Assembly (NCBI GenBank): GCA_029982205.1
Contig: JARRCM010000006.1
Location: forward strand, 73,438 to 120,864
Reading direction: 5' to 3'
Origin: Thermosediminibacterales bacterium
GTDB lineage: Bacteria > Bacillota > Thermosediminibacteria > Koleobacterales > JARRCM01
DNA length: 47,427 bases
In this document: in pieces, positions 18,157-31,874 of the stretch
Layout of the letters: every line of letters begins with the position of its first letter
Position numbering within the stretch: the stretch's first letter is position 1
Notes under the pieces: generated by a model
Seen by the model: the letters and a program-made list of their open reading frames with translations, nothing else
The model's database searches: none
What the model was told of the DNA's origin: nothing
Position numbers and translations under genes: made by a program

Positions 18157-19587
18157 TTAATTGTCTTTTTCATGCTGATCCAGCCCGGATATATAGGCAT
18201 AAATACCTGTTTTAAATAATTCGACGTCACTTATTTCAAACAACCGAGCCAAACTGGAAGGAAAAGTTTTACCACTTGCTACATAAGTCCTCATCAACAG
18301 ATGGTAAACATCAGATTTTTTGTTAAGCCTAGTTAGTTCCAGTAAACGATAAACCAAATTTTTTTTCGAGTTGTCATCTAAAGAAAATGGGCTCTGTTTA
18401 GCAGCTTCGCGAATGTGCCTCAGGTTGATGGCACTCACAGGAACACCTCCCTTTTTCTTCTGAAAATATTTTTTTATTTCATAAAATAAATCAATAAGAT
18501 TATCAATCCTGCCTGTATTTTTGTTATTACGTATTGTAACAACCTCAGGGTCCTTGCCTCGGTTCTCCCCTGTAAGGCTGGCATAAATCGATTTGTATAT
18601 CATGGTAAGCAAATAATTGAATTTTTCCTTCAATATAACATCCCACACTGTATCGTGGTTAAGCTTTCCTAAAAGAGATGAAATCGTTGGAATCAAGAAA
18701 AGTTCCGCTAACCTGTCAGATATTGGGTAATAATTGACTTTCCCTCTTTCAAAAGATATTACCTCCATACTCTGGAGCCCCCAGCTTCCTAAAGTACTCC
18801 TCAATTGACTGTTATAGGGCACAGCAGCAAGCAGGGCCTTTTGGTAAGAACCTTTGCTTCTGGTTTCATTCCAAACCAACTGGTTCAAATACCAGTTTAC
18901 CTTCAGTGAATCGGAGTTGATAAAATATTTCTTTTGATCAATAATGTGAAAACACAGGAAGTAAGAACGGCATTGCTGGCACATTGGCAGGTTAGGATTA
19001 CCATCCCAAAAATAATTTGGAACTTTATTTGGAGCACTTCCTAAATATTTTGATAACGTCAGAGTAAAAAACCTTTCAAACAACCTATTCATTTGCTTAT
19101 CAAAATCAAACTTTTCCCCGCAAAAACTACATCGTATTTTCTTTTCTTCTTTGTTTGCTAAAGAAAACCACATATTTAGGAAGTCAATTTTAGATATCTT
19201 AGTATTATGTGGAAGCAGATTTGGATAAAATGTTTCTTTTGAGCCTAATAAGCTGTTGCAGGTAATCTCTATCGTTTCTTTCACATTTATTCCATCTTTT
19301 TTCTTGCTCTTCTCAACCCACCACCAAACTATTCGTTTCAAGCCCTTTATCTTATCTGGTACTTCGCGGTCATTTGAGCACAAAGGATAGCCCTCAGGCA
19401 TATTTACATCCCGGGTACTGAACACCGCTTCCATTACCTTTCTCGGTATACTAACCACATTATCGTGAAAAAAACTTTCAACCACATCTTCACCCAACCC
19501 CCAGGCCAGTATTTCCAAAAATCCTTGCACGCAAGCGTTGTAATACCAGGTAGAAGGATATATAGTTACATCTTTATTTTTATTCAC
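18157..19587 (-). CDS. cas8b: Cas8 (Cst1-type large subunit)
   Basis: This is the large Cascade subunit, expected to recognise the PAM and recruit Cas3. At 476 residues it begins VTIYPSTWYYNACVQGFLEIL, typical of the Cst1 family. It contains a split zinc-finger-like pair, CSFC (about 152-155) and CQQC (about 203-206). The C-terminal half is helical with Lys/Arg-rich stretches, as expected for DNA contacts. The identification rests on the N-terminal pattern, the CxxC pairs, size and position between cas6 and cas7, because Cas8 proteins diverge quickly. It follows cas6 by 5 bases. Confidence 0.88.
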   Translation of the reverse strand: MNKNKDVTIYPSTWYYNACVQGFLEILAWGLGEDVVESFFHDNVVSIPRKVMEAVFSTRDVNMPEGYPLCSNDREVPDKIKGLKRIVWWWVEKSKKKDGINVKETIEITCNSLLGSKETFYPNLLPHNTKISKIDFLNMWFSLANKEEKKIRCSFCGEKFDFDKQMNRLFERFFTLTLSKYLGSAPNKVPNYFWDGNPNLPMCQQCRSYFLCFHIIDQKKYFINSDSLKVNWYLNQLVWNETRSKGSYQKALLAAVPYNSQLRSTLGSWGLQSMEVISFERGKVNYYPISDRLAELFLIPTISSLLGKLNHDTVWDVILKEKFNYLLTMIYKSIYASLTGENRGKDPEVVTIRNNKNTGRIDNLIDLFYEIKKYFQKKKGGVPVSAINLRHIREAAKQSPFSLDDNSKKNLVYRLLELTRLNKKSDVYHLLMRTYVASGKTFPSSLARLFEISDVELFKTGIYAYISGLDQHEKDN

Positions 19588-19592
19588 AGCTA

Positions 19593-20324
19593 TTATTTCA
19601 CCTCCAGAAAGCCGAATCCCTGGCCGGTGCGTACACCCAAGCCAAAGTCATATAAAAACTGCAGGCTGTCGGGAGACCCCCCTAGAGCAATACTGCCCCG
19701 CAGGGTAGTTATCTGACCACCATAATGGCTGCATACACCTTTGTGGTAGCTGGATACGGAAGGTATAATTTTTACTTTTCCTATGCTGTTACTGAAACTT
19801 TTTCCATACTCCCGGCAAAAAAACTCGTGCTGTTTTAGAAGGTGTGTGTTTATAGCTTCTTCCAAATCATATATAGTGCACTCAAGTGGATCTAAATAAC
19901 CATCACGGCCACGCAACACTGCATGTCCCCGAATTTTGAAAACCTGTTGAGAATATTTAATCTTTTTCAAAGGCATCAGGTTGATACGGCACAACTTTAA
20001 GCCCAGGATAGTATCTTTTCCTTTTAAACTTATTGCACCGTTACACAGCGCTGTCATGACTTCATAAAACCCGGTAGAAATCAAAAAATATATCGGTGGC
20101 TTTACACACATCTCCTTCGTTCTCGTATCAATATCTAATATCTGTTGAAAATTTACTGAAAACACATACGGACTGTAGCCCGGCTTGCTCTGCTTAAAAC
20201 GGTTAAACACAGGCGAATTCTCCAACATACTCTTGATCAGAGAAATAAAGTGACGCCGAAAATCAAGAGGAAATATTACATTCTGTTTCATTTCCCGAGG
20301 TTCAAGTATAATATTTAATCGCAA
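19593..20324 (-). CDS. cas6: Cas6 crRNA-processing endoribonuclease
   Basis: Cas6 cleaves the precursor transcript within each repeat, leaving the 8-nt handle. The 243-residue protein has the RAMP double ferredoxin fold and ends with the glycine-rich loop GLGVRTGQGFGFLEV that is diagnostic of Cas6. Histidines near the N-terminus (FRRHF, about 24-26) are candidate catalytic residues. The start is a TTG at 20324 preceded by GGAGGTG at about 5 bases. It is the first cas gene of the operon, 74 bases after the HIRAN-protein stop. No convincing separate promoter is visible in that gap, though it is large enough to hold one. Confidence 0.93.
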   Translation of the reverse strand: MRLNIILEPREMKQNVIFPLDFRRHFISLIKSMLENSPVFNRFKQSKPGYSPYVFSVNFQQILDIDTRTKEMCVKPPIYFLISTGFYEVMTALCNGAISLKGKDTILGLKLCRINLMPLKKIKYSQQVFKIRGHAVLRGRDGYLDPLECTIYDLEEAINTHLLKQHEFFCREYGKSFSNSIGKVKIIPSVSSYHKGVCSHYGGQITTLRGSIALGGSPDSLQFLYDFGLGVRTGQGFGFLEVK

Positions 20325-23405: not shown

Positions 23406-24569
23406 CTATGAAAGGTTATAATCTATGATTTCTTTTAAAGATCTTAAAGTATAATCTATTTCATCTGTTGTGTTAAAATATCCTATACTAAACCGTAAAG
23501 TGCCTTCAGGAAAACTGCCGATGGTTTTATGTGCCAAAGGCGCACAGTGAAGCCCTGAACGGGTCATGACACCATATTGGTAATCCAGCATAAAACTCAA
23601 CTCGCCCATATCTAAACCTTTTATACTTATGGAGATGGTAGAAGTTTGAAGCTCGGGATCACCGGGACCGTAGACTATAATGCCGGGAAGTTTTTTTAAA
23701 CCCTCGAGAAATCTTTCGGTAAGCTGTTTTTCATGATTCCGTATGTTCTGCAGCCCTGTTTTGTTTATAAATTTCAGGCCTGCATTAAGCCCTGCTATCC
23801 CAACAGTATTCATTGTCCCGCTTTCAAACTTATCAGGCAGCATATCAGGCTGATACTCCATATCTGACCTGCTGCCGGTTCCCCCTTCAATCAGGGGTTC
23901 CATCTGTTCTGCAGCGCGCCGGCTGATGCAAAGCCCCCCGATACCAGGCGGACCCATTAAAGATTTATGACCGGTAAAAGCAAGGACATCTAGCCCCAGA
24001 TTTTCAAAATCTATTTCATAGACTCCGGCGGTCTGGGCGGTGTCCAGGACATATAACAAACCCTCTTCATTGGCAATCTCTCCTATTTCTTCAACTGGCA
24101 TTAAAGTGCCTGTGACATTAGAGGCATGTGTTAATACAATCATTTTGGTGTTATGTTTTATTTTATCTTTCACCAGTTGTGGATTTAATAACCCTTTCTC
24201 ATCACACTTAACAAAATCTACCTCTATACCTTTTGTTTTTTCAAGGTTTCTCAGAGGGCGCACAACAGAATTGTGTTCCATACTTGATGTTATAACATGG
24301 TCCCCTTTTTTCAATAATCCCTTTAAAGCCATATTTAATGAATGTGTAATATTCTGTGTAAAAATCACCTGTTCAGGAGATGGAATATTAAAAAAGTCCT
24401 TAAGCAGCACCCTTGTTTCAAGTAGAATCCTTCCGGCTTCAAGGGAACACTCATACCCTCCCCTGCCCGGGCTGCAGCCGATGTTTTTCATATAGTTCTC
24501 CATCGCCTCCCATACAGCGGGAGGTTTAGGCCTTGAAGTTGCGGCATTATCTAAATATACCTGTCTCAT
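23406..24569 (-). CDS. cysteine desulfurase family protein (class V aminotransferase)
   Basis: This PLP enzyme of 387 residues probably removes sulfur (or selenium) from cysteine (selenocysteine) for delivery to acceptors. It starts MRQVYLDNAATSRPKPP. It has the His of SSMEHNSVVRP, the PLP-binding Asp-x-x-x of VLDTAQTAGV, the Schiff-base lysine in FTGHKSLMGPPG and the mobile-loop cysteine in RSGLHCAPLAHK. The RSGLHC type of loop places it with the SufS/CsdB-like group. GGAG lies 10 bases before the ATG at 24569; a long upstream frame is spurious. A minus-strand promoter lies in the 73-bp element at 24610-24682. Related genes are often neighbours of DUF3343; here DUF3343 lies 7 kb away behind a second copy of that element. 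Confidence 0.88.
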   Translation of the reverse strand: MRQVYLDNAATSRPKPPAVWEAMENYMKNIGCSPGRGGYECSLEAGRILLETRVLLKDFFNIPSPEQVIFTQNITHSLNMALKGLLKKGDHVITSSMEHNSVVRPLRNLEKTKGIEVDFVKCDEKGLLNPQLVKDKIKHNTKMIVLTHASNVTGTLMPVEEIGEIANEEGLLYVLDTAQTAGVYEIDFENLGLDVLAFTGHKSLMGPPGIGGLCISRRAAEQMEPLIEGGTGSRSDMEYQPDMLPDKFESGTMNTVGIAGLNAGLKFINKTGLQNIRNHEKQLTERFLEGLKKLPGIIVYGPGDPELQTSTISISIKGLDMGELSFMLDYQYGVMTRSGLHCAPLAHKTIGSFPEGTLRFSIGYFNTTDEIDYTLRSLKEIIDYNLS

Positions 24570-24609
24570 AGTATTTTTTCTCCTTTTTTTTGAATCCAAC
24601 ACATCGTTT

Positions 24610-24682
24610 CCATGTATTTCTAATTTTAGTATTGCATATGAATATATTAAAGTCAATATGATATTCGCGTTATAATAATATT
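24610..24682. promoter_or_regulatory. left copy of a duplicated divergent promoter/operator
   Basis: This 73-bp element recurs at 31463-31535 with about 80% identity by eye. The core (about 24640-24676) has only three or four differences. On the minus strand it carries TTGACT (24651-24656) and AATACT (24628-24633) with 17 bases between them, suitable for the cysteine desulfurase gene. On the plus strand TATAAT lies at the right edge of the core. An imperfect palindrome with GAATAT and ATATTC arms spans the core, as an operator would. Confidence 0.6.
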
Positions 24683-24803
24683 TTAATTGTAAAAATTTAT
24701 AAATTGGCTTCTCTTTGCGATATTTGAGTAAACACAACATAAAATCCCTACCAGAATTGATAGGGAGTTTATTACAAAAAAAATCAAAATTCAGATTCCT
24801 TGT

Positions 24804-26561
24804 TTACAATCTTTCTGGAACACCCTCTGTTGACCATCCTCTTAAACTATAATAATCTGATAACATTGTTTCCAATTGTTCTCTTGTAATAACCTTGCTT
24901 TTAGAACCTATAGGCTCTTCGAAAAATCTTTCAGGCAGGGTATCATCTTTTTTAGTAATGCCTTCTCTTATGTTAAATATCCGTGTGGCATCCACTATGT
25001 TTGACGCTATTTTTCTAAGCTCTTCTGTGTTTAATTTTAATCCCGTCGTAGCTTGAATTATCGTAGAAAGGTCTTCCCATAACACTATATCTCTATAAAA
25101 CCGGCATAAAATTAGTGCATCGTACAAAGCCAGCCTATCTTCATATTCTATAAAGAGTTTTGCTTTTCCTTCCGTTGTATCAGGGTCTATTATCCCTGCT
25201 AATTCCGGTTTGTAAAAGGTTGATCTCAAATGACACGCTCCTCTGTCTGAGGTAGCATAAGCTAATCCCATCCCTTTCAGTATTCTTGGATCATATCCTG
25301 CTGGTTCCAAACCCTTTACATGTATAGCTATATTTTCTAAACCCAGCTGTTTGCTTGCCGTTTTAATGCCTTCGGCTAATACTGCTCCGGCACCTCTCTT
25401 ATAAACGATATCTTCAATGAGTCTAGCTATTTTATCTACCTGACCATAATCTATATCCAAATCAAGCTTCCCGGCCTTTGATGCTTCTATTGCAAATGCT
25501 ACCATATTACCTGTTGTTATTGTATCTATGCCAAACCTGTCACAGAGGTCATTAAGATAGGCTATTGCTTTTATGTCATCTATGCAGCATAACCCACCGA
25601 AGGAATATATTGTTTCATATTCAGGGCCTTCAATAGTTAACCCTTTATATGGCCCTTCTTTGATTTTACTTAACTTACCACAAGCAAAGAAACACGGTGG
25701 ACATGCTCTAGGGGTTACTTCCATTTCTCGCTGCATTTTTTCTGCACTTATATTTTCCCATGTATCCAGGCTACCTTTATGCCAGTATTGAGTAGGAAAC
25801 CCTTCAACTTTATTCATTATTGCCACAAGCATCGGTGTTCCTGTATTTTTATATGCCTTAGCACCCGGATCATTTTTTCCTCTTTTCACCAAATCCTTCA
25901 CATAGCTATCTAATAAATCTTGATCAGCCAGTTCACACTTAGAATTACCGTGAAATACTATTGCCTTTAAATTCTTTTTGCCCATAACGGTTCCTACTCC
26001 TGTTCGCCCGGCTGATCTCCAGTAATTATTTTCTATGCAAGCATATCTTACCAGATTTTCTCCTGCCGGGCCTATTACTACAGCCTGGGCGCCTTTTTTC
26101 GCTACCTCTGCTAATACTGAATCTTCCGTTTCATAGGTGTCTTTCCCCCACAAATGAGATGCATCATGAAATTCTACCCTTTCATCAGATATCTCCAAAT
26201 ACACTTTCTCTTTTGAAATCCCTTCAATAACTATAGCGTCATAACCGGTCTTTTTAAGAGCAGGAGCTACATTGCCTCCCGAATAGGATTCAGAGTAAAT
26301 TCCAGTTAGAGGAGATTTTGTGAAAACTCCATATCTGCTTGATCCCATCATTTTGGTATCTGCTATAGGGCCGGTGGTAAATATTAGCTTGTTATCTTCA
26401 GACATAGGACAAACACCTTTGGGAATTTCTTTTAAAAGCAAATAACTCCCAAGGCCTTTTCCACCTAAATATTTTTTCAAAATTTCATCGGCTATCTCTT
26501 CAACATGATAGGTTTTATTTGTAAGATTTATCTTTAGCAGCCTATTATAAAATCCATACAT
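24804..26561 (-). CDS. aor: aldehyde:ferredoxin oxidoreductase (tungsten-bis-pterin type)
   Basis: The enzyme interconverts aldehydes and carboxylic acids with ferredoxin, using a tungsten (or molybdenum) bis-pterin and one [4Fe-4S] cluster. The 585-residue protein has the normal family length. It has YLGGKGLGSYLL near the start, TGPIADTKMMGSSRYGVFTKSP in domain 1, the cysteine cluster RACPPCFFACGK (CxxCxxxC), EGPEYETIYSFGGLC, and a late cysteine in YDALILCRF that completes the cluster. The ATG at 26561 has GGAGG 11 bases upstream. It is the last gene of adh-permease-aor, so aldehyde from the dehydrogenase, or acid reduced by this enzyme, probably links the two. The substrate is unknown. Confidence 0.92.
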   Translation of the reverse strand: MYGFYNRLLKINLTNKTYHVEEIADEILKKYLGGKGLGSYLLLKEIPKGVCPMSEDNKLIFTTGPIADTKMMGSSRYGVFTKSPLTGIYSESYSGGNVAPALKKTGYDAIVIEGISKEKVYLEISDERVEFHDASHLWGKDTYETEDSVLAEVAKKGAQAVVIGPAGENLVRYACIENNYWRSAGRTGVGTVMGKKNLKAIVFHGNSKCELADQDLLDSYVKDLVKRGKNDPGAKAYKNTGTPMLVAIMNKVEGFPTQYWHKGSLDTWENISAEKMQREMEVTPRACPPCFFACGKLSKIKEGPYKGLTIEGPEYETIYSFGGLCCIDDIKAIAYLNDLCDRFGIDTITTGNMVAFAIEASKAGKLDLDIDYGQVDKIARLIEDIVYKRGAGAVLAEGIKTASKQLGLENIAIHVKGLEPAGYDPRILKGMGLAYATSDRGACHLRSTFYKPELAGIIDPDTTEGKAKLFIEYEDRLALYDALILCRFYRDIVLWEDLSTIIQATTGLKLNTEELRKIASNIVDATRIFNIREGITKKDDTLPERFFEEPIGSKSKVITREQLETMLSDYYSLRGWSTEGVPERL

Positions 26562-26590
26562 TGTCTTTAACCCTCCTCTCAAAAATCAGT

Positions 26591-26630
26591 TTAAGGGGCA
26601 AGATATATTCCAAAAAATCTTACCCCTTAA
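26591..26630 (-). terminator. strong hairpin between permease and aor genes
   Basis: Arms TTAAGGGG plus AAGAT pair with ATCTT plus CCCCTTAA, with one bulge on each side, around a 14-base AT loop. On the minus strand a short T-run follows after four bases. It may reduce read-through into aor or stabilise the upstream message. Confidence 0.5.
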
Positions 26631-26651
26631 TCAAGAATCTATATTACGAAA

Positions 26652-28010
26652 TTACGAACCTGCTGATACCTCTGAATCCACTTTTGCTGCTATGGTTTTT
26701 CCTGATTCAATTAACAGATACATAATAATCCCTAATCCTAAACCCCATGCAGCACCTTTCATTGCCAGAACCGCACCGGTCACACCTGCTATTCCCTTTT
26801 GCTCATTAGTTTTAACCATGTCCATTGCAATCCTTGTACAGACAAATCCCTGAACCAAAAGGGTAAGCGACAGAGCAATAGGCAATGCCGGACGCACCAA
26901 AGAAACTATCGGCATCAGGCTTACGCCTACAAACGTCATAATCCTAAACGTTCCCATTCCACTGTATATAGAATCCATACCATCTCTACCGTCTTTATAC
27001 CTTTCGGAAACAGCAGCTGTAACTGCTGCCCACAGCGGTCCACATAATTGTGTATATGGAGAAATAAATGCCTGTACTAAATTCCTTATACCACTTATAA
27101 GATTTGACCTGTCGGGGTTAAAATCTATTTTTTCATCTTTCCTAACCACATCAGCCTCAGTAATCAAAGCTTTGCTTGTTACAAAATCACCAAAAGCGAT
27201 AATATATGCTGCAAACATCATAGGAAGAGCTGCAACAAACATATTAAACCCAGGGAAACCAATCCCAAATGGAGTTACTTCTTTTATAAGTCCGCCAAAT
27301 TGCGGTACAAATATTTCCCATTTAATCTGAGGTACCGGGAGTTCCTTAACTATCGGGCCTAAAATTAATGCAATAAGTATTGCCGGAAGCATACCATATT
27401 TAGCTATATTGTTCATAAGCCTGCTTTTTTGTCTTACTTTTTTAAACTTGGCGGAAAATAAAAGGTAAAAAGACAAGAGCCCTCCAACTAAAATAGTTAT
27501 AGGAAACTGTTCGAACCTGCCCCCTGGTTTTAATTCACCCATAATAGCCGCAATTCCTGCCCCCAGTAGGATACCAGCTTTAATTGAATCAGGTACTCGG
27601 GAAACAAGTTTTTGAGCAAGACCTGTTATACCCATTATTAAGAAAAACACACCAACTAAAAGCTGTAAAGCAATTAACGCTTGAGTTCTTTCCGGTCCTA
27701 TTGGGTATTGAGTAAGATAAGCTATAGTCAGGGGAATTGCTGGAGTAATCCATCCCGGAACTACAGGATCTCCTAAAAGAACGTGCAAATTGTATAAAAG
27801 TCCATTAATAATAACCATTGTAAGCGCAATCTCAAAAGAAACACCGAGAACTTCCGTTAATACCGGAATAGCTCCAAGACATGTCGCACACATAAGTAGT
27901 GCCTGTAAAGCTTCAGGCCATTCCCACCGGTAGTGAATTAAAGGTAAACGAATCTTAAAAGGCCCAAAAGGTATAAACGGTTGTTCCTTTCCATATTCTC
28001 TAACTGCCAT
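26652..28010 (-). CDS. multi-spanning permease, NCS2/xanthine-uracil-like
   Basis: A 452-residue integral membrane protein with about 12 predicted hydrophobic helices. It resembles the nucleobase/ascorbate (NCS2, UraA-like) and SLC26-type fold: PEALQALLMCATCLGAIPVL at the first helix, LGDPVVPGWITPAIPLTIAYL around the substrate-binding half-helices, and RVPDSIKAGILLGAGIAAIMGEL in the fourth to fifth helices. Its cargo cannot be read. Because it lies between an alcohol dehydrogenase and an aldehyde oxidoreductase, a carboxylate or aromatic substrate is a reasonable inference over a nucleobase. The ATG at 28010 has AGGAG at 7 bases; an ATG two codons earlier is too close to it. Confidence 0.72.
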   Translation of the reverse strand: MAVREYGKEQPFIPFGPFKIRLPLIHYRWEWPEALQALLMCATCLGAIPVLTEVLGVSFEIALTMVIINGLLYNLHVLLGDPVVPGWITPAIPLTIAYLTQYPIGPERTQALIALQLLVGVFFLIMGITGLAQKLVSRVPDSIKAGILLGAGIAAIMGELKPGGRFEQFPITILVGGLLSFYLLFSAKFKKVRQKSRLMNNIAKYGMLPAILIALILGPIVKELPVPQIKWEIFVPQFGGLIKEVTPFGIGFPGFNMFVAALPMMFAAYIIAFGDFVTSKALITEADVVRKDEKIDFNPDRSNLISGIRNLVQAFISPYTQLCGPLWAAVTAAVSERYKDGRDGMDSIYSGMGTFRIMTFVGVSLMPIVSLVRPALPIALSLTLLVQGFVCTRIAMDMVKTNEQKGIAGVTGAVLAMKGAAWGLGLGIIMYLLIESGKTIAAKVDSEVSAGS

Positions 28011-28102
28011 ATACATACTCCTTTCTTTTTGTTTTTGTTTTTTAATTTTTTAAACTATTTCATAACATCACCTCACAGCTTGCTTTTATTGTCAGCTAAA
28101 GA

Positions 28103-28128
28103 CCCGAAATATTTTTTAATATTTCAGG
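28103..28128 (-). terminator. hairpin between adh and permease genes
   Basis: GAAATATT and AATATTTC form an 8-bp AT stem with a TTTT loop (28106-28125), 17 bases past the adh stop. No clear T-run follows, so it may be an intercistronic or weak attenuating structure. Confidence 0.35.
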
Positions 28129-28144
28129 CCTGCTTTTCTCACCT

Positions 28145-29302
28145 TTACCATGCATTAGTATAAATCTGCGTAATATCTTCAAGGGTTAAAACTCTTGGGT
28201 TGTTAGAAAGCAATCGGGTAACCTTTACCCCGGCCTCAGCGAGCTTTGGTATTGCAGCTTCAGGTATGTCTACCTCTCTTAATTTTGTTGGAACCCCGAT
28301 GTCTTCAGCTAAGGCAATCATGGCATCTATTGCTTTTTGAGCAGCCTCTCTAATAGATAAACCTTCAATGTTTTCTCCCATCGCTTCGGCAATTTTGGCA
28401 AACTTCTCCATACGGCTGACCACATTATATTCCATCACATATCTCAGCATTAAAGTATTGGCCATTCCATGCGGGATATGGAACTGACCACCCAGAGGGT
28501 ATGCAAGTGCATGAACCGCCCCTACACCGGCGTTTGCAAAGGCAACACCAGCCATAAGACTTCCCAATGACATGTTATATCGGGCTTCTATATTTTCTCC
28601 ATCGGCAACTGCCGTCCTGAGGCTTCCGGAAATTAATTTAATAGCTTCAAGAGATATGCACTCTGTAAATTTATTGGCCTTTTTAGCTATATAAGACTCT
28701 ATAGCATGGATAAGTGCATCCATACCGGTATTTGCCGTTATTTTAGGCGGAACTGTAATAGTCAAATTTGGATCCACTATAGCAACATCTGCATAAAGAT
28801 AAGGACTTACTACGCCTTTCTTTAATTCTTCTTTCACATCTGTTAATATTGCTATTGGAGTTACTTCTGAACCCGTGCCTGAAGTTGTAGGTAACATAAT
28901 TGTTGGTAAGCCGGGTTTTTCAACTAAATTTGTCCCAACATATTTATCTATAGGGCCTCCATTTGTCACCAATATTGATACTGCTTTTGTTGCATCTATA
29001 GAACTTCCACCGCCAAGACCAATCAACAAATTATAGCCATCCTGTTTTACTGCTTCTGCAATATCTTCAACTGTATCTATTGGTGGTTCCGGAATAACTT
29101 TATCAAAATAACCAACCTCAAAGCCTTCTTTTTCAAGAATTCCTTTGACTTTTTCTAATATCCCCGCTTTAGCAATTCCTTCATCGGTAATTATAAATAC
29201 TTTTTTTCCCCCTAGCTTTCTAGCCTCACTACCCAATTTTTTTAATGCTCCTACTCCCATAATAATAGAACCTGCTGTTGAAAAATTAAATATGCCATTC
29301 AC
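28145..29302 (-). CDS. iron-dependent (group III) alcohol dehydrogenase
   Basis: This NAD(P)-linked, iron-dependent dehydrogenase of 385 residues carries the family signatures in order: KVFIITDEGIAKAGI, the dinucleotide loop GGGSSIDATKA (about 97-107), PTTSGTGSEVTPIAIL (about 138-153), and metal ligands in TGMDALIHAIESY and GAVHALAYPLGGQFHIPHG. The start is a GTG at 29302 with GGAGG 11 bases upstream. It is the first gene of the adh-permease-aor unit. A candidate sigma-54 promoter lies 60-80 bases upstream, and the likely activator is the next gene on the same strand. It probably supplies or consumes the aldehyde handled by the oxidoreductase; its chain-length preference is unknown. Confidence 0.9.
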   Translation of the reverse strand: MNGIFNFSTAGSIIMGVGALKKLGSEARKLGGKKVFIITDEGIAKAGILEKVKGILEKEGFEVGYFDKVIPEPPIDTVEDIAEAVKQDGYNLLIGLGGGSSIDATKAVSILVTNGGPIDKYVGTNLVEKPGLPTIMLPTTSGTGSEVTPIAILTDVKEELKKGVVSPYLYADVAIVDPNLTITVPPKITANTGMDALIHAIESYIAKKANKFTECISLEAIKLISGSLRTAVADGENIEARYNMSLGSLMAGVAFANAGVGAVHALAYPLGGQFHIPHGMANTLMLRYVMEYNVVSRMEKFAKIAEAMGENIEGLSIREAAQKAIDAMIALAEDIGVPTKLREVDIPEAAIPKLAEAGVKVTRLLSNNPRVLTLEDITQIYTNAW

Positions 29303-29362
29303 AAAAAATTCAACCTCCTTTGTAATTTTATTATTTTTTTGATAACTTTTAATGCTTTAACG

Positions 29363-29380
29363 TTGCAATTTTCAGACCAA
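29363..29380 (-). promoter_or_regulatory. candidate sigma-54 (-24/-12) promoter of the adh-permease-aor unit
   Basis: On the minus strand TTGGTCTGAAAATTGCA has the invariant GG (29377-29378) and GC (29365-29366) exactly 10 bases apart, and matches the TTGGNNNN...TTGCA pattern. It lies downstream of a terminator and about 60 bases before the adh start. A sigma-54 activator gene is adjacent. Confidence 0.62.
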
Positions 29381-29399
29381 CGTTATCACCAAAAGGCTA

Positions 29400-29428
29400 A
29401 AAATAAAAAATCCCTTCTAACAGGGATT
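29400..29428 (-). terminator. rho-independent terminator after the sigma-54 activator gene
   Basis: On the minus strand AATCCCT and AGGGATT form a 7-bp stem with a 6-base loop, followed by TTTTATTTTT. It lies 150 bases past the activator stop and just upstream of the -24/-12 promoter, insulating the adh unit from read-through. Confidence 0.7.
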
Positions 29429-29577
29429 ATAAAAGTTTAATCTTTTTTATAATTTTTCACGGTAGCAACAATGCACTAATTTTTCATGTCGATATACATT
29501 TAAAACTTTAAAATTCTTACTTTTATACAAGATTCTCTATATGTTTACTTCTGCATCTTTGTAGTGCAAGCCGGAAC

Positions 29578-31311
29578 TTAAATGTTGTATTTCCGCTTCT
29601 TTCTTATAACTGTCGTGCGATGAACACCCAATGCTTCTGCTACTTTTTTTAAACTTTTATATTTTTTTATTGCTTTTTCAATAAGTTGTTTTTCCAGTTT
29701 GCTGATTGCATCATCCAAAGGAATAATGTCTTTTATAAACACATCAGTTCTTTTGTTTTTGAAGTTGTCTTTTAAATAATTAGGTAAATGTTCGATATTA
29801 ATATAATCATCTTCAGCTACTACCACCAATCTTTCAATTATATTTTCCAATTCTCTAACGTTACCGGGCCAGTCATAATCAATGAGCTGATTAATAACTT
29901 CTGAACTAATTGTTTTTTTCAAACCATATTTTTTACTAAATTTCTTCAAAAAATGATATATAAGGGGAACAATATCTTCTTTTCGTTCTCTTAAAGGAGG
30001 AACACAAATCGGAACTGCATTTAATCTATAAAACAAATCCTCTCGGAATTTGCCTTGTTCTACCAACTGTTTCAAATCTTTATTTGTCGAAGCTAAAATC
30101 CTAACATCAATTTTTCTCTCTTTTATTCCACCTACTCTAATTATTTCTCTTTCTTGAATTGCCCTCAAAAGTTTTACCTGCAATTTAAAAGATAAATCAG
30201 CAATTTCATCCAAAAGAAGTGTTCCGCCTTCGGCGACTTCAAACAAACCTGGTTTTCCTTCTTTTTTTGCACCAGAAAATGCTCCTCCTTCATATCCAAA
30301 AAGTTCTGATTCTAACAGGTTTTCTGGAATTGCTCCACAATTTATTTTTATGAATGGTCCTTTACATCTATCACTTTCTTTATGTATCAATTTCGCTATC
30401 AGTTCTTTACCAACCCCGGATTCCCCCGTAATCAGAACATTTGAATCAACTCTTGAAACACGTAAAGCAAGAATAATTATCTGTCTCATGCTGTTACTTT
30501 TTGTTATTATATCTTCCATCTCTATTTGCTGTAGTCGCAGCTCAGATAATTGGTCATAATATTTTTTTGTCAGCTTCTTGGTTTTTTCCAGTTCATCTTT
30601 CAATCGGTTCAATTCTGTTATATCTCTAACATTAGTTACAACTCGGGTTATTTTCCCATTCTCATCAAAAATTGGATTCCCTGTAACAATAACATCTTTC
30701 TTTCCTTTTATAGTCTGCATTATCGTCATCGGTTTCTTCTTTTCAAGCACCAAAAGGGTTACAGATTGTGAATAAAAACCTGCTTTTTCCAGATCACGCA
30801 TATGCCTGCCTATTACTTCTTCGCCCATAACGCCTGTTATTCTTTCATAAGCCGAATTTACCCTTAGTGTAGTTCCGTTTCCATCAGTAACATATATTCC
30901 ATCATATGATGACTCAATTATAGCATTTAATTCTGCATTAAGCTCTTTAACACTGTTTAATTCTTTTGAAATGGTTTCCAATTCTGAAATATCCTGAAAA
31001 ACAGCAACAGCTCCTACGACTTCTCCATTTTTCAAAATAGGGGTTCTATTTGTAATAACTGTTCGATTGCCTATCAAGAGCTTTTGACTAAAATTGCTTT
31101 CTCCTGTCTGTAGCACATCAATAAGAAGGGTGTTTGGAATGACACAAGAAATATGTTTCCCTATTGCATCAACAGCCTTTTTACCTATAACTCTTTCAGC
31201 GGCTGGATTTAATATAGTTATATAACCATCTTTATCGACAGCCACTATTCCGTTATGGGTGGAATTCAAAATGGTATTAAGTTCAATTGATAAATTGTCA
31301 ACGCTTTTCAT
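29578..31311 (-). CDS. PAS-PAS sigma-54-dependent activator
   Basis: The 577-residue bacterial enhancer-binding protein has two PAS domains (about residues 10-110, including VDKDGYITILNPAAERVIG, and 120-235, including GIYVTDGNGTTLRVNSAYERI). A short coiled coil follows (about 235-265). The AAA+ domain has Walker A TGESGVGKE, a GAFSGA loop in place of GAFTGA, Walker B TLLLDEIADL, and the arginine-finger region FREDLFYRLN. A Fis-type helix-turn-helix ends the protein (LKKVAEALGVHRTTVIRKKRKY). It probably senses a ligand or redox state by PAS and activates the adjacent adh-permease-aor unit from the site near 29370. An upstream ATG at 31335 would add eight residues and lacks a separate ribosome site. 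Confidence 0.92.
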   Translation of the reverse strand: MKSVDNLSIELNTILNSTHNGIVAVDKDGYITILNPAAERVIGKKAVDAIGKHISCVIPNTLLIDVLQTGESNFSQKLLIGNRTVITNRTPILKNGEVVGAVAVFQDISELETISKELNSVKELNAELNAIIESSYDGIYVTDGNGTTLRVNSAYERITGVMGEEVIGRHMRDLEKAGFYSQSVTLLVLEKKKPMTIMQTIKGKKDVIVTGNPIFDENGKITRVVTNVRDITELNRLKDELEKTKKLTKKYYDQLSELRLQQIEMEDIITKSNSMRQIIILALRVSRVDSNVLITGESGVGKELIAKLIHKESDRCKGPFIKINCGAIPENLLESELFGYEGGAFSGAKKEGKPGLFEVAEGGTLLLDEIADLSFKLQVKLLRAIQEREIIRVGGIKERKIDVRILASTNKDLKQLVEQGKFREDLFYRLNAVPICVPPLRERKEDIVPLIYHFLKKFSKKYGLKKTISSEVINQLIDYDWPGNVRELENIIERLVVVAEDDYINIEHLPNYLKDNFKNKRTDVFIKDIIPLDDAISKLEKQLIEKAIKKYKSLKKVAEALGVHRTTVIRKKRKYNI

Positions 31312-31462
31312 TGTTATAAAAATTCTCCCTCCCATCCCAGATATGTTACTCTTTGTAAAATTTTATAATTTTCACGATTTGTTGTTTTTTTGCAATATTC
31401 TCTCATGATAATAATATATCATATGTTAAAAATGATTTCCATTCACTTATATTTAGGTCTTC

Positions 31463-31535
31463 CCATATATTTCTAATTCAAGCATTTCATTGGAATATAT
31501 TAAAGTCAATACGATATTCGTGATATAATATATTA
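31463..31535. promoter_or_regulatory. right copy of the duplicated divergent promoter/operator
   Basis: This is the same element as 24610-24682, in the same orientation. On the plus strand TATAAT (31524-31529) with a weak TTAAAG about 18 bases upstream can drive DUF3343. On the minus strand TTGACT (31504-31509) remains, but the -10 is weaker (AATGCT). The GAATAT...ATATTC palindrome is kept. The remaining gap 31336-31610 also has a small ATGATA/TATCAT dyad at 31405-31422. Confidence 0.6.
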
Positions 31536-31610: not shown

Positions 31611-31874
31611 ATGAAAGAAAAATTCTATGTTATTACTTTTCCTACAACACATCACGCACTTAAGTTTGAACAGTTTATAAAAGAAAAAGGCTTTAATTCT
31701 AGGCTTATCCCTGTTCCCAGGGAGATAAGCTCGAGCTGCGGGCTTGCAGCGCGTTTTGAAGAAGATAATTTGCATGAAATCAGCCAACTCGTAAAAGCCA
31801 ACAGTATAGAATATGAATCGCTGTATTTTATAGACAGGACCTCCAATAAAAAACCTGAAAAAACAGATTTTTAA
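31611..31874 (+). CDS. DUF3343 protein
   Basis: An 87-residue cytoplasmic protein with the DUF3343 pattern: YVITFPTTHHALKFEQFIKEKG, LIPVPREISSSCGLAARF with its conserved Ser-Ser-Cys-Gly, and a terminal ESLYFI strand. The biochemical role is unknown. The family commonly accompanies cysteine desulfurases and selenium-metabolism genes, so a sulfur/selenium carrier role is suggested by context only. AAGGAG lies 11 bases before the ATG. It is the only rightward gene in the region, with a terminator right behind it, and shares its promoter element with the cysteine desulfurase gene 7 kb to the left. Confidence 0.85.
   Translation: MKEKFYVITFPTTHHALKFEQFIKEKGFNSRLIPVPREISSSCGLAARFEEDNLHEISQLVKANSIEYESLYFIDRTSNKKPEKTDF

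Follow-up and report, generated by a model that had tools for sequence, protein, structure and literature searches.

Two copies of a promoter-like element stand in the same orientation on either side of a 6.8-kb metabolic block in the window, a stretch of 47,427 nt from contig C44 of a 1.9-Mb genome bin that is 86% complete. The question that this locus raises is whether the two copies descend from one control region and, if so, how a set of metabolic genes came to lie between them. The left copy (24607..24677) lies 38 nt upstream of the ATG of a cysteine desulfurase gene, csd (24569, minus strand). The right copy (31460..31530) lies 80 nt upstream of the ATG of a DUF3343 gene (31611, plus strand). 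Aligned without gaps, the copies are identical at 60 of 71 positions (85%) and are spaced 6853 nt apart. Two same-orientation elements of 73 bp and about 80% identity had been described in an earlier note; the elements are real, and their size and identity are revised here to 71 nt and 85%. The borders of the repeat are abrupt on both sides, and extension into the flanks was not significant (p = 0.40 and 0.79). A gapped alignment extending the repeat on the DUF3343 side looked good, yet it also lacked significance. When we searched the 1.9-Mb genome with the left copy using BLAST, the right copy (E = 1.4e-16) was the only other full copy recovered. Elsewhere in the window the best 71-mer match reached only 36/71, and an Rfam scan of 22-34 kb identified no RNA family. 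The earlier note had set its reading against a plain regulon motif scattered before unrelated genes, and full copies number two genome-wide. Because the match runs ungapped over 71 nt, spacers included, and the genome holds two copies, the copies appear to be related by descent rather than being mere regulon sites, and a divergent promoter has very likely been duplicated.

We further characterized the promoter-like anatomy of the two copies. All three motifs reported previously were found in both: TTGACT on the minus strand (read as AGTCAA at 24651-24656 and 31504-31509), TATAAT on the plus strand (24671-24676 and 31524-31529), and a palindrome with half-sites GAATAT (24640-24645 and 31493-31498) and ATATTC (24661-24666 and 31514-31519). 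The half-sites form the same imperfect dyad, GAATAT-N15-ATATTC, in the left (24640..24666) and right (31493..31519) copies, centred on overlapping -35 regions; neither the dyads nor the elements are assigned a strand. The predicted csd-facing promoter of the left copy (24628..24656, minus strand) reads TTGACT-17 bp-AATACT, has a TG before the -10 and scores 9/12. Its leftward equivalent in the right copy (31481..31509, minus strand) reads TTGACT-17 bp-AATGCT, also with a TG before the -10, and falls under the scan threshold; it could fire toward the sigma-54 activator gene described below. In the rightward direction, where a good -35 is lacking, the right copy carries an extended -10 upstream of DUF3343, TGATATAAT (31521..31529, plus strand). 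The rightward -10 of the left copy (24671..24676, plus strand; CGTTATAAT, CGT-TATAAT) has no TG, faces no gene and is probably vestigial. The better leftward -10 is found in the copy that serves csd and the extended rightward -10 in the copy that serves DUF3343. Each copy thus has the better version of the promoter that it apparently uses, with few substitutions behind the asymmetry.

Both flanking genes belong to selenium trafficking. The product of csd (23406..24569, minus strand) is a cysteine desulfurase family protein (TIGR01977, 507 bits) near the selenocysteine lyase SclA, whose model NF040779 it matches with 471 bits, under the cut-off of 525. A longer csd reading frame extending to 24740 was rejected as an artefact of a frame that stays open through the element. 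The DUF3343 gene (31611..31874, plus strand) encodes a Se_S_carrier protein (PF11823). The genome also encodes SelD with an in-frame TGA, and it therefore plausibly uses selenium. Comparative genomics has described a selenium cluster consisting of csd or Sec lyase, yedE, a SirA/TusA-like gene and DUF3343, with LysR_Se nearby (PMC5322559). The window resembles this cluster in that the locus is bordered by a Sec-lyase-like csd and by DUF3343, and relatives have it in compact, divergent form. The window differs in that yedE and the tusA-like gene are absent between csd and DUF3343, which are separated instead by 6.8 kb of unrelated genes, and in that no protein of the window genome scores above the LysR_Se family cut-off. 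No yedE was found anywhere in this genome, of which the bin is 86% complete. Elsewhere in the window are CRISPR-associated genes, encoding a Cas6-like protein (19593-20324) and a weak match to Cas_CXXC_CXXC (18157-19587), that adjoin HIRAN and WYL/WCX genes.

The gene order in relatives is informative about the ancestral arrangement. In a Halanaerobiales MAG (L197, csd 64%), a DUF3343-tusA-yedE arm faces away from csd, and FliK/FlhB-like genes flank csd there as they do in the window. Locus L212 has all four genes in the same order, with csd additionally preceded by a LysR gene. Loci L199 and L198 show the yedE side of the L212 arrangement, and in L199 yedE diverges from LysR-csd. In G002, G023 and G024, csd and yedE diverge, and DUF3343 lies downstream of yedE. 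The nearest relative compared, G001, which belongs to the same order (csd 70%), carries yedE and DUF3343 together on one contig, with LysR-csd on a second one. Relatives thus have a single intergenic region from which csd and the yedE-tusA-DUF3343 arm run in opposite directions, which gives good support for one control region shared by both; the 71-bp element likely came from it. The proposal that csd and the DUF3343 arm once diverged from one control region is thus borne out by L197, L212, G002, G023 and G024. The accompanying idea that the right arm started directly at DUF3343 is not, as yedE and often tusA came first. With yedE and tusA at the head of the ancestral right arm and both now gone, loss or replacement has to be invoked as well as insertion.

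We then looked for the element itself in relatives. A search of 60 relatives for the full 71-bp element gave nothing beyond short matches at chance level, and 2.4 Mb of fetched loci likewise contained no full element. A partial match of 28 nt at G000:C12:12372 was discarded because it is just promoter-like sequence with TTGACT, in the neighbourhood of unrelated genes. The undisrupted arrangement of csd, element and DUF3343 that the earlier note anticipated was seen in no relative, and genomes of the same order are too distant for non-coding sequence to be compared. In G001, the sequence preceding yedE agrees with the left copy at 31 of 46 ungapped positions in the expected orientation (p = 0.004, 20 tests made), and TTGACT-17-AATACT is identical in the two. 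The right copy has no such match in this region. The matched stretch includes seven positions at which the left and right copies differ; G001 agrees with the left copy at five, with the right copy at one and with neither at one. The G001 region is probably the counterpart of the csd-facing promoter, the match itself being only suggestive after correction for the 20 tests. The same alignment is suggestive of the left copy being the less altered csd promoter.

The 6.8-kb block between the copies comprises four genes, all on the minus strand. The first encodes a sigma-54 activator with two PAS domains (29578..31335), for which the best model is PrdR, below its cut-off. It is followed by adh, for an iron-containing alcohol dehydrogenase (28145..29302), a permease gene without clear family (26652..28016; weak Pfam match to MFS_MOT1), aor, for an aldehyde ferredoxin oxidoreductase (24804..26582), and a terminator after aor (24745..24766, minus strand). 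A candidate sigma-54 promoter of the adh operon (29364..29379, minus strand) has the form TGG-N10-GC; its motif, TGGTCTGAAAATTGCA (29379-29364), has three mismatches to TGGCAC-N5-TTGCA, and the general pattern does not exceed chance frequency in the window. The GC3 of the four genes is 0.24-0.29, versus mostly 0.31-0.45 in the other genes of the window (rank test, p = 0.001). Their deviation in codon usage is mild (z = 1.6-3.3) and common to other window genes too. The permease matches no NCBIfam family and represents an unnamed transporter family tied to aldehyde or alcohol use. Among homologues of aor, one in-frame TGA or TAA was observed in L156, L158 and L159 (G006, G017 and G011) and likewise in L166, L167 and L169 (G001, G010 and G007); the TGA cases could be either selenocysteine codons or broken genes.

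That this module could be found elsewhere in a relative had also been foreseen, and G001 provides such a case. Its contig C76 carries adh-permease-aor intact (82%, 64% and 80% identity), followed by a CoA-transferase gene and adjoining neither csd nor DUF3343. The sigma-54 gene is not visible at this locus because the stretch upstream of adh-permease-aor is masked. Of 399 genomes in the phylum, only 23 have the permease, and next to some of its homologues lies a sigma-54 activator, aor or adh gene. Combinations of permease, aor and sigma-54 activator recur sporadically, with similar sets in G001, G002, G062, G114 and G270. These data are consistent with the genes travelling together as one module. 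No sign of an integrase, a transposon end or an extended duplication was seen at the module boundaries.

The earlier note had further held that both halves kept an operator. GAATAT-N15-ATATTC occurs 19 times genome-wide versus 17 times for the reversed control; it is therefore not enriched and was ruled out as a regulon motif. Another dyad, TATAG-N7-CTATA, occurs in the csd and/or yedE intergenic region of G001 (L083:3774-3790), G002 (L187:9940-9956), G020 (L084:32-48) and L212 (3525-3541). Other sites (L193:7890, L196:6694 and L239:12764) are probably upstream of DUF3343 or yedF in some cases. This dyad, which often takes the form TATAGA-N5-TCTATA, is scarce, with only about five sites per genome in relatives. 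We consider it a candidate for the operator that controls the selenium cluster in these relatives and possibly, as a guess, that of LysR_Se. It is absent from both copies of the element and from the whole window, and the best LysR_Se match in the window genome, on contig C32 of this 86% complete MAG, reaches 217 bits against a cut-off of 250. As the GAATAT dyad is not enriched, TATAG-N7-CTATA is absent and no LysR_Se match exceeds the cut-off, retention of an operator by the two halves is not supported. The window genome seems to have lost the control of the selenium cluster that relatives show.

Plain co-regulation is the strongest of the alternatives to duplication from a shared control region, and we regard it as rather unlikely. 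Here, csd and DUF3343 would form a small selenium regulon, their promoters kept alike by operator selection and occasional gene conversion, and the module would be incidental. Both genes do function in selenium trafficking, and the differences between the copies fall mostly outside the promoter and dyad positions (1 of 30 positions there versus 10 of 41 elsewhere; Fisher p = 0.02, for motif positions picked partly for being conserved). However, the copies are still identical at 31 of 41 positions outside the motifs, and 71 nt of ungapped similarity, spacers included, far exceeds what an operator needs. The lack of a third copy in the genome, the unenriched dyad and the missing candidate operator of relatives also argue against co-regulation.

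Less probable still is duplication of the element separately from the arrival of the module, through an older tandem duplication or through integration of element-bearing circular DNA that left direct repeats. The direct orientation of the copies and the abrupt ends of their similarity on both sides are what such events would leave, but neither a recombinase nor an element end nor a second junction came to light, and the observations fit this reading and the favoured account equally well. Chance resemblance between two promoter-like stretches within AT-rich DNA is refuted for practical purposes, since 60/71 lies far above the ceiling of 44/71 in 30 simulated 50-kb AT-rich sequences (first-order Markov, same composition) and the E-value is 1.4e-16.

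We therefore return to descent from a shared control region, for which the repeat, its promoter-like anatomy, the ancestral type of gene order in relatives and the separate module in G001 are direct observations. We infer promoter activity, the order of events and the linkage between insertion and duplication. The 71-bp element would consist of two housekeeping promoters set compactly back to back, their -35 regions overlapping, and would descend from the control region shared by csd and a divergent (yedE-tusA-)DUF3343 arm. In the lineage of the window, yedE and tusA would have been lost, the element would have been copied once, and a self-contained module, made up of the PAS sigma-54 activator and an adh-permease-aor operon that is probably sigma-54-driven, would have ended up between the copies. 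The left copy would now drive csd through TTGACT-17-AATACT, and the right copy would drive DUF3343 through its extended -10 and perhaps, in the leftward direction, the sigma-54 activator as well. Taken as a whole, this history, from the shared ancestral promoter through yedE/tusA loss and copying to the module between the copies, is the account that we favour by a modest degree. Copying upon entry of the module, as the earlier note proposed, is plausible; no element-bearing empty site was found that would prove it. The reading given in that note is thus upheld in part.

Duplicated intergenic control regions can remain as direct repeats around an inserted block. The window is alike in that its direct repeats share one orientation and each end serves one flanking gene; it differs in that no mobile-element machinery or target-site rule was identified there. 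Compared with a usual target-site duplication, the repeat is much longer and already 15% diverged. A literature search for promoter duplication with insertion returned no matches. In gene content and in its candidate -24/-12 promoter, the module resembles other sigma-54-regulated modules for aldehyde and alcohol oxidation, with a PAS activator, permease, AOR and Fe-ADH. Unlike them, it lies between csd and DUF3343 and between two promoter copies, a position seen only in the window.

The rearrangement is a tidy and fairly ordinary one for a bacterial genome, and the locus leaves the general picture of gene regulation unchanged. It is doubtful that the right copy acts as a single divergent promoter that couples expression of DUF3343, the selenium carrier, with that of the AOR operon's sigma-54 activator; if it did, the rearrangement would have put AOR induction under a selenium-handling promoter. 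The locus offers a readable example of how a selenium cluster breaks up: the transporter and the TusA-like gene are lost, a regulated metabolic module arrives, and each orphaned arm of the cluster retains one promoter copy. A testable candidate for the operator of the relatives' selenium cluster has also come out of the comparison.
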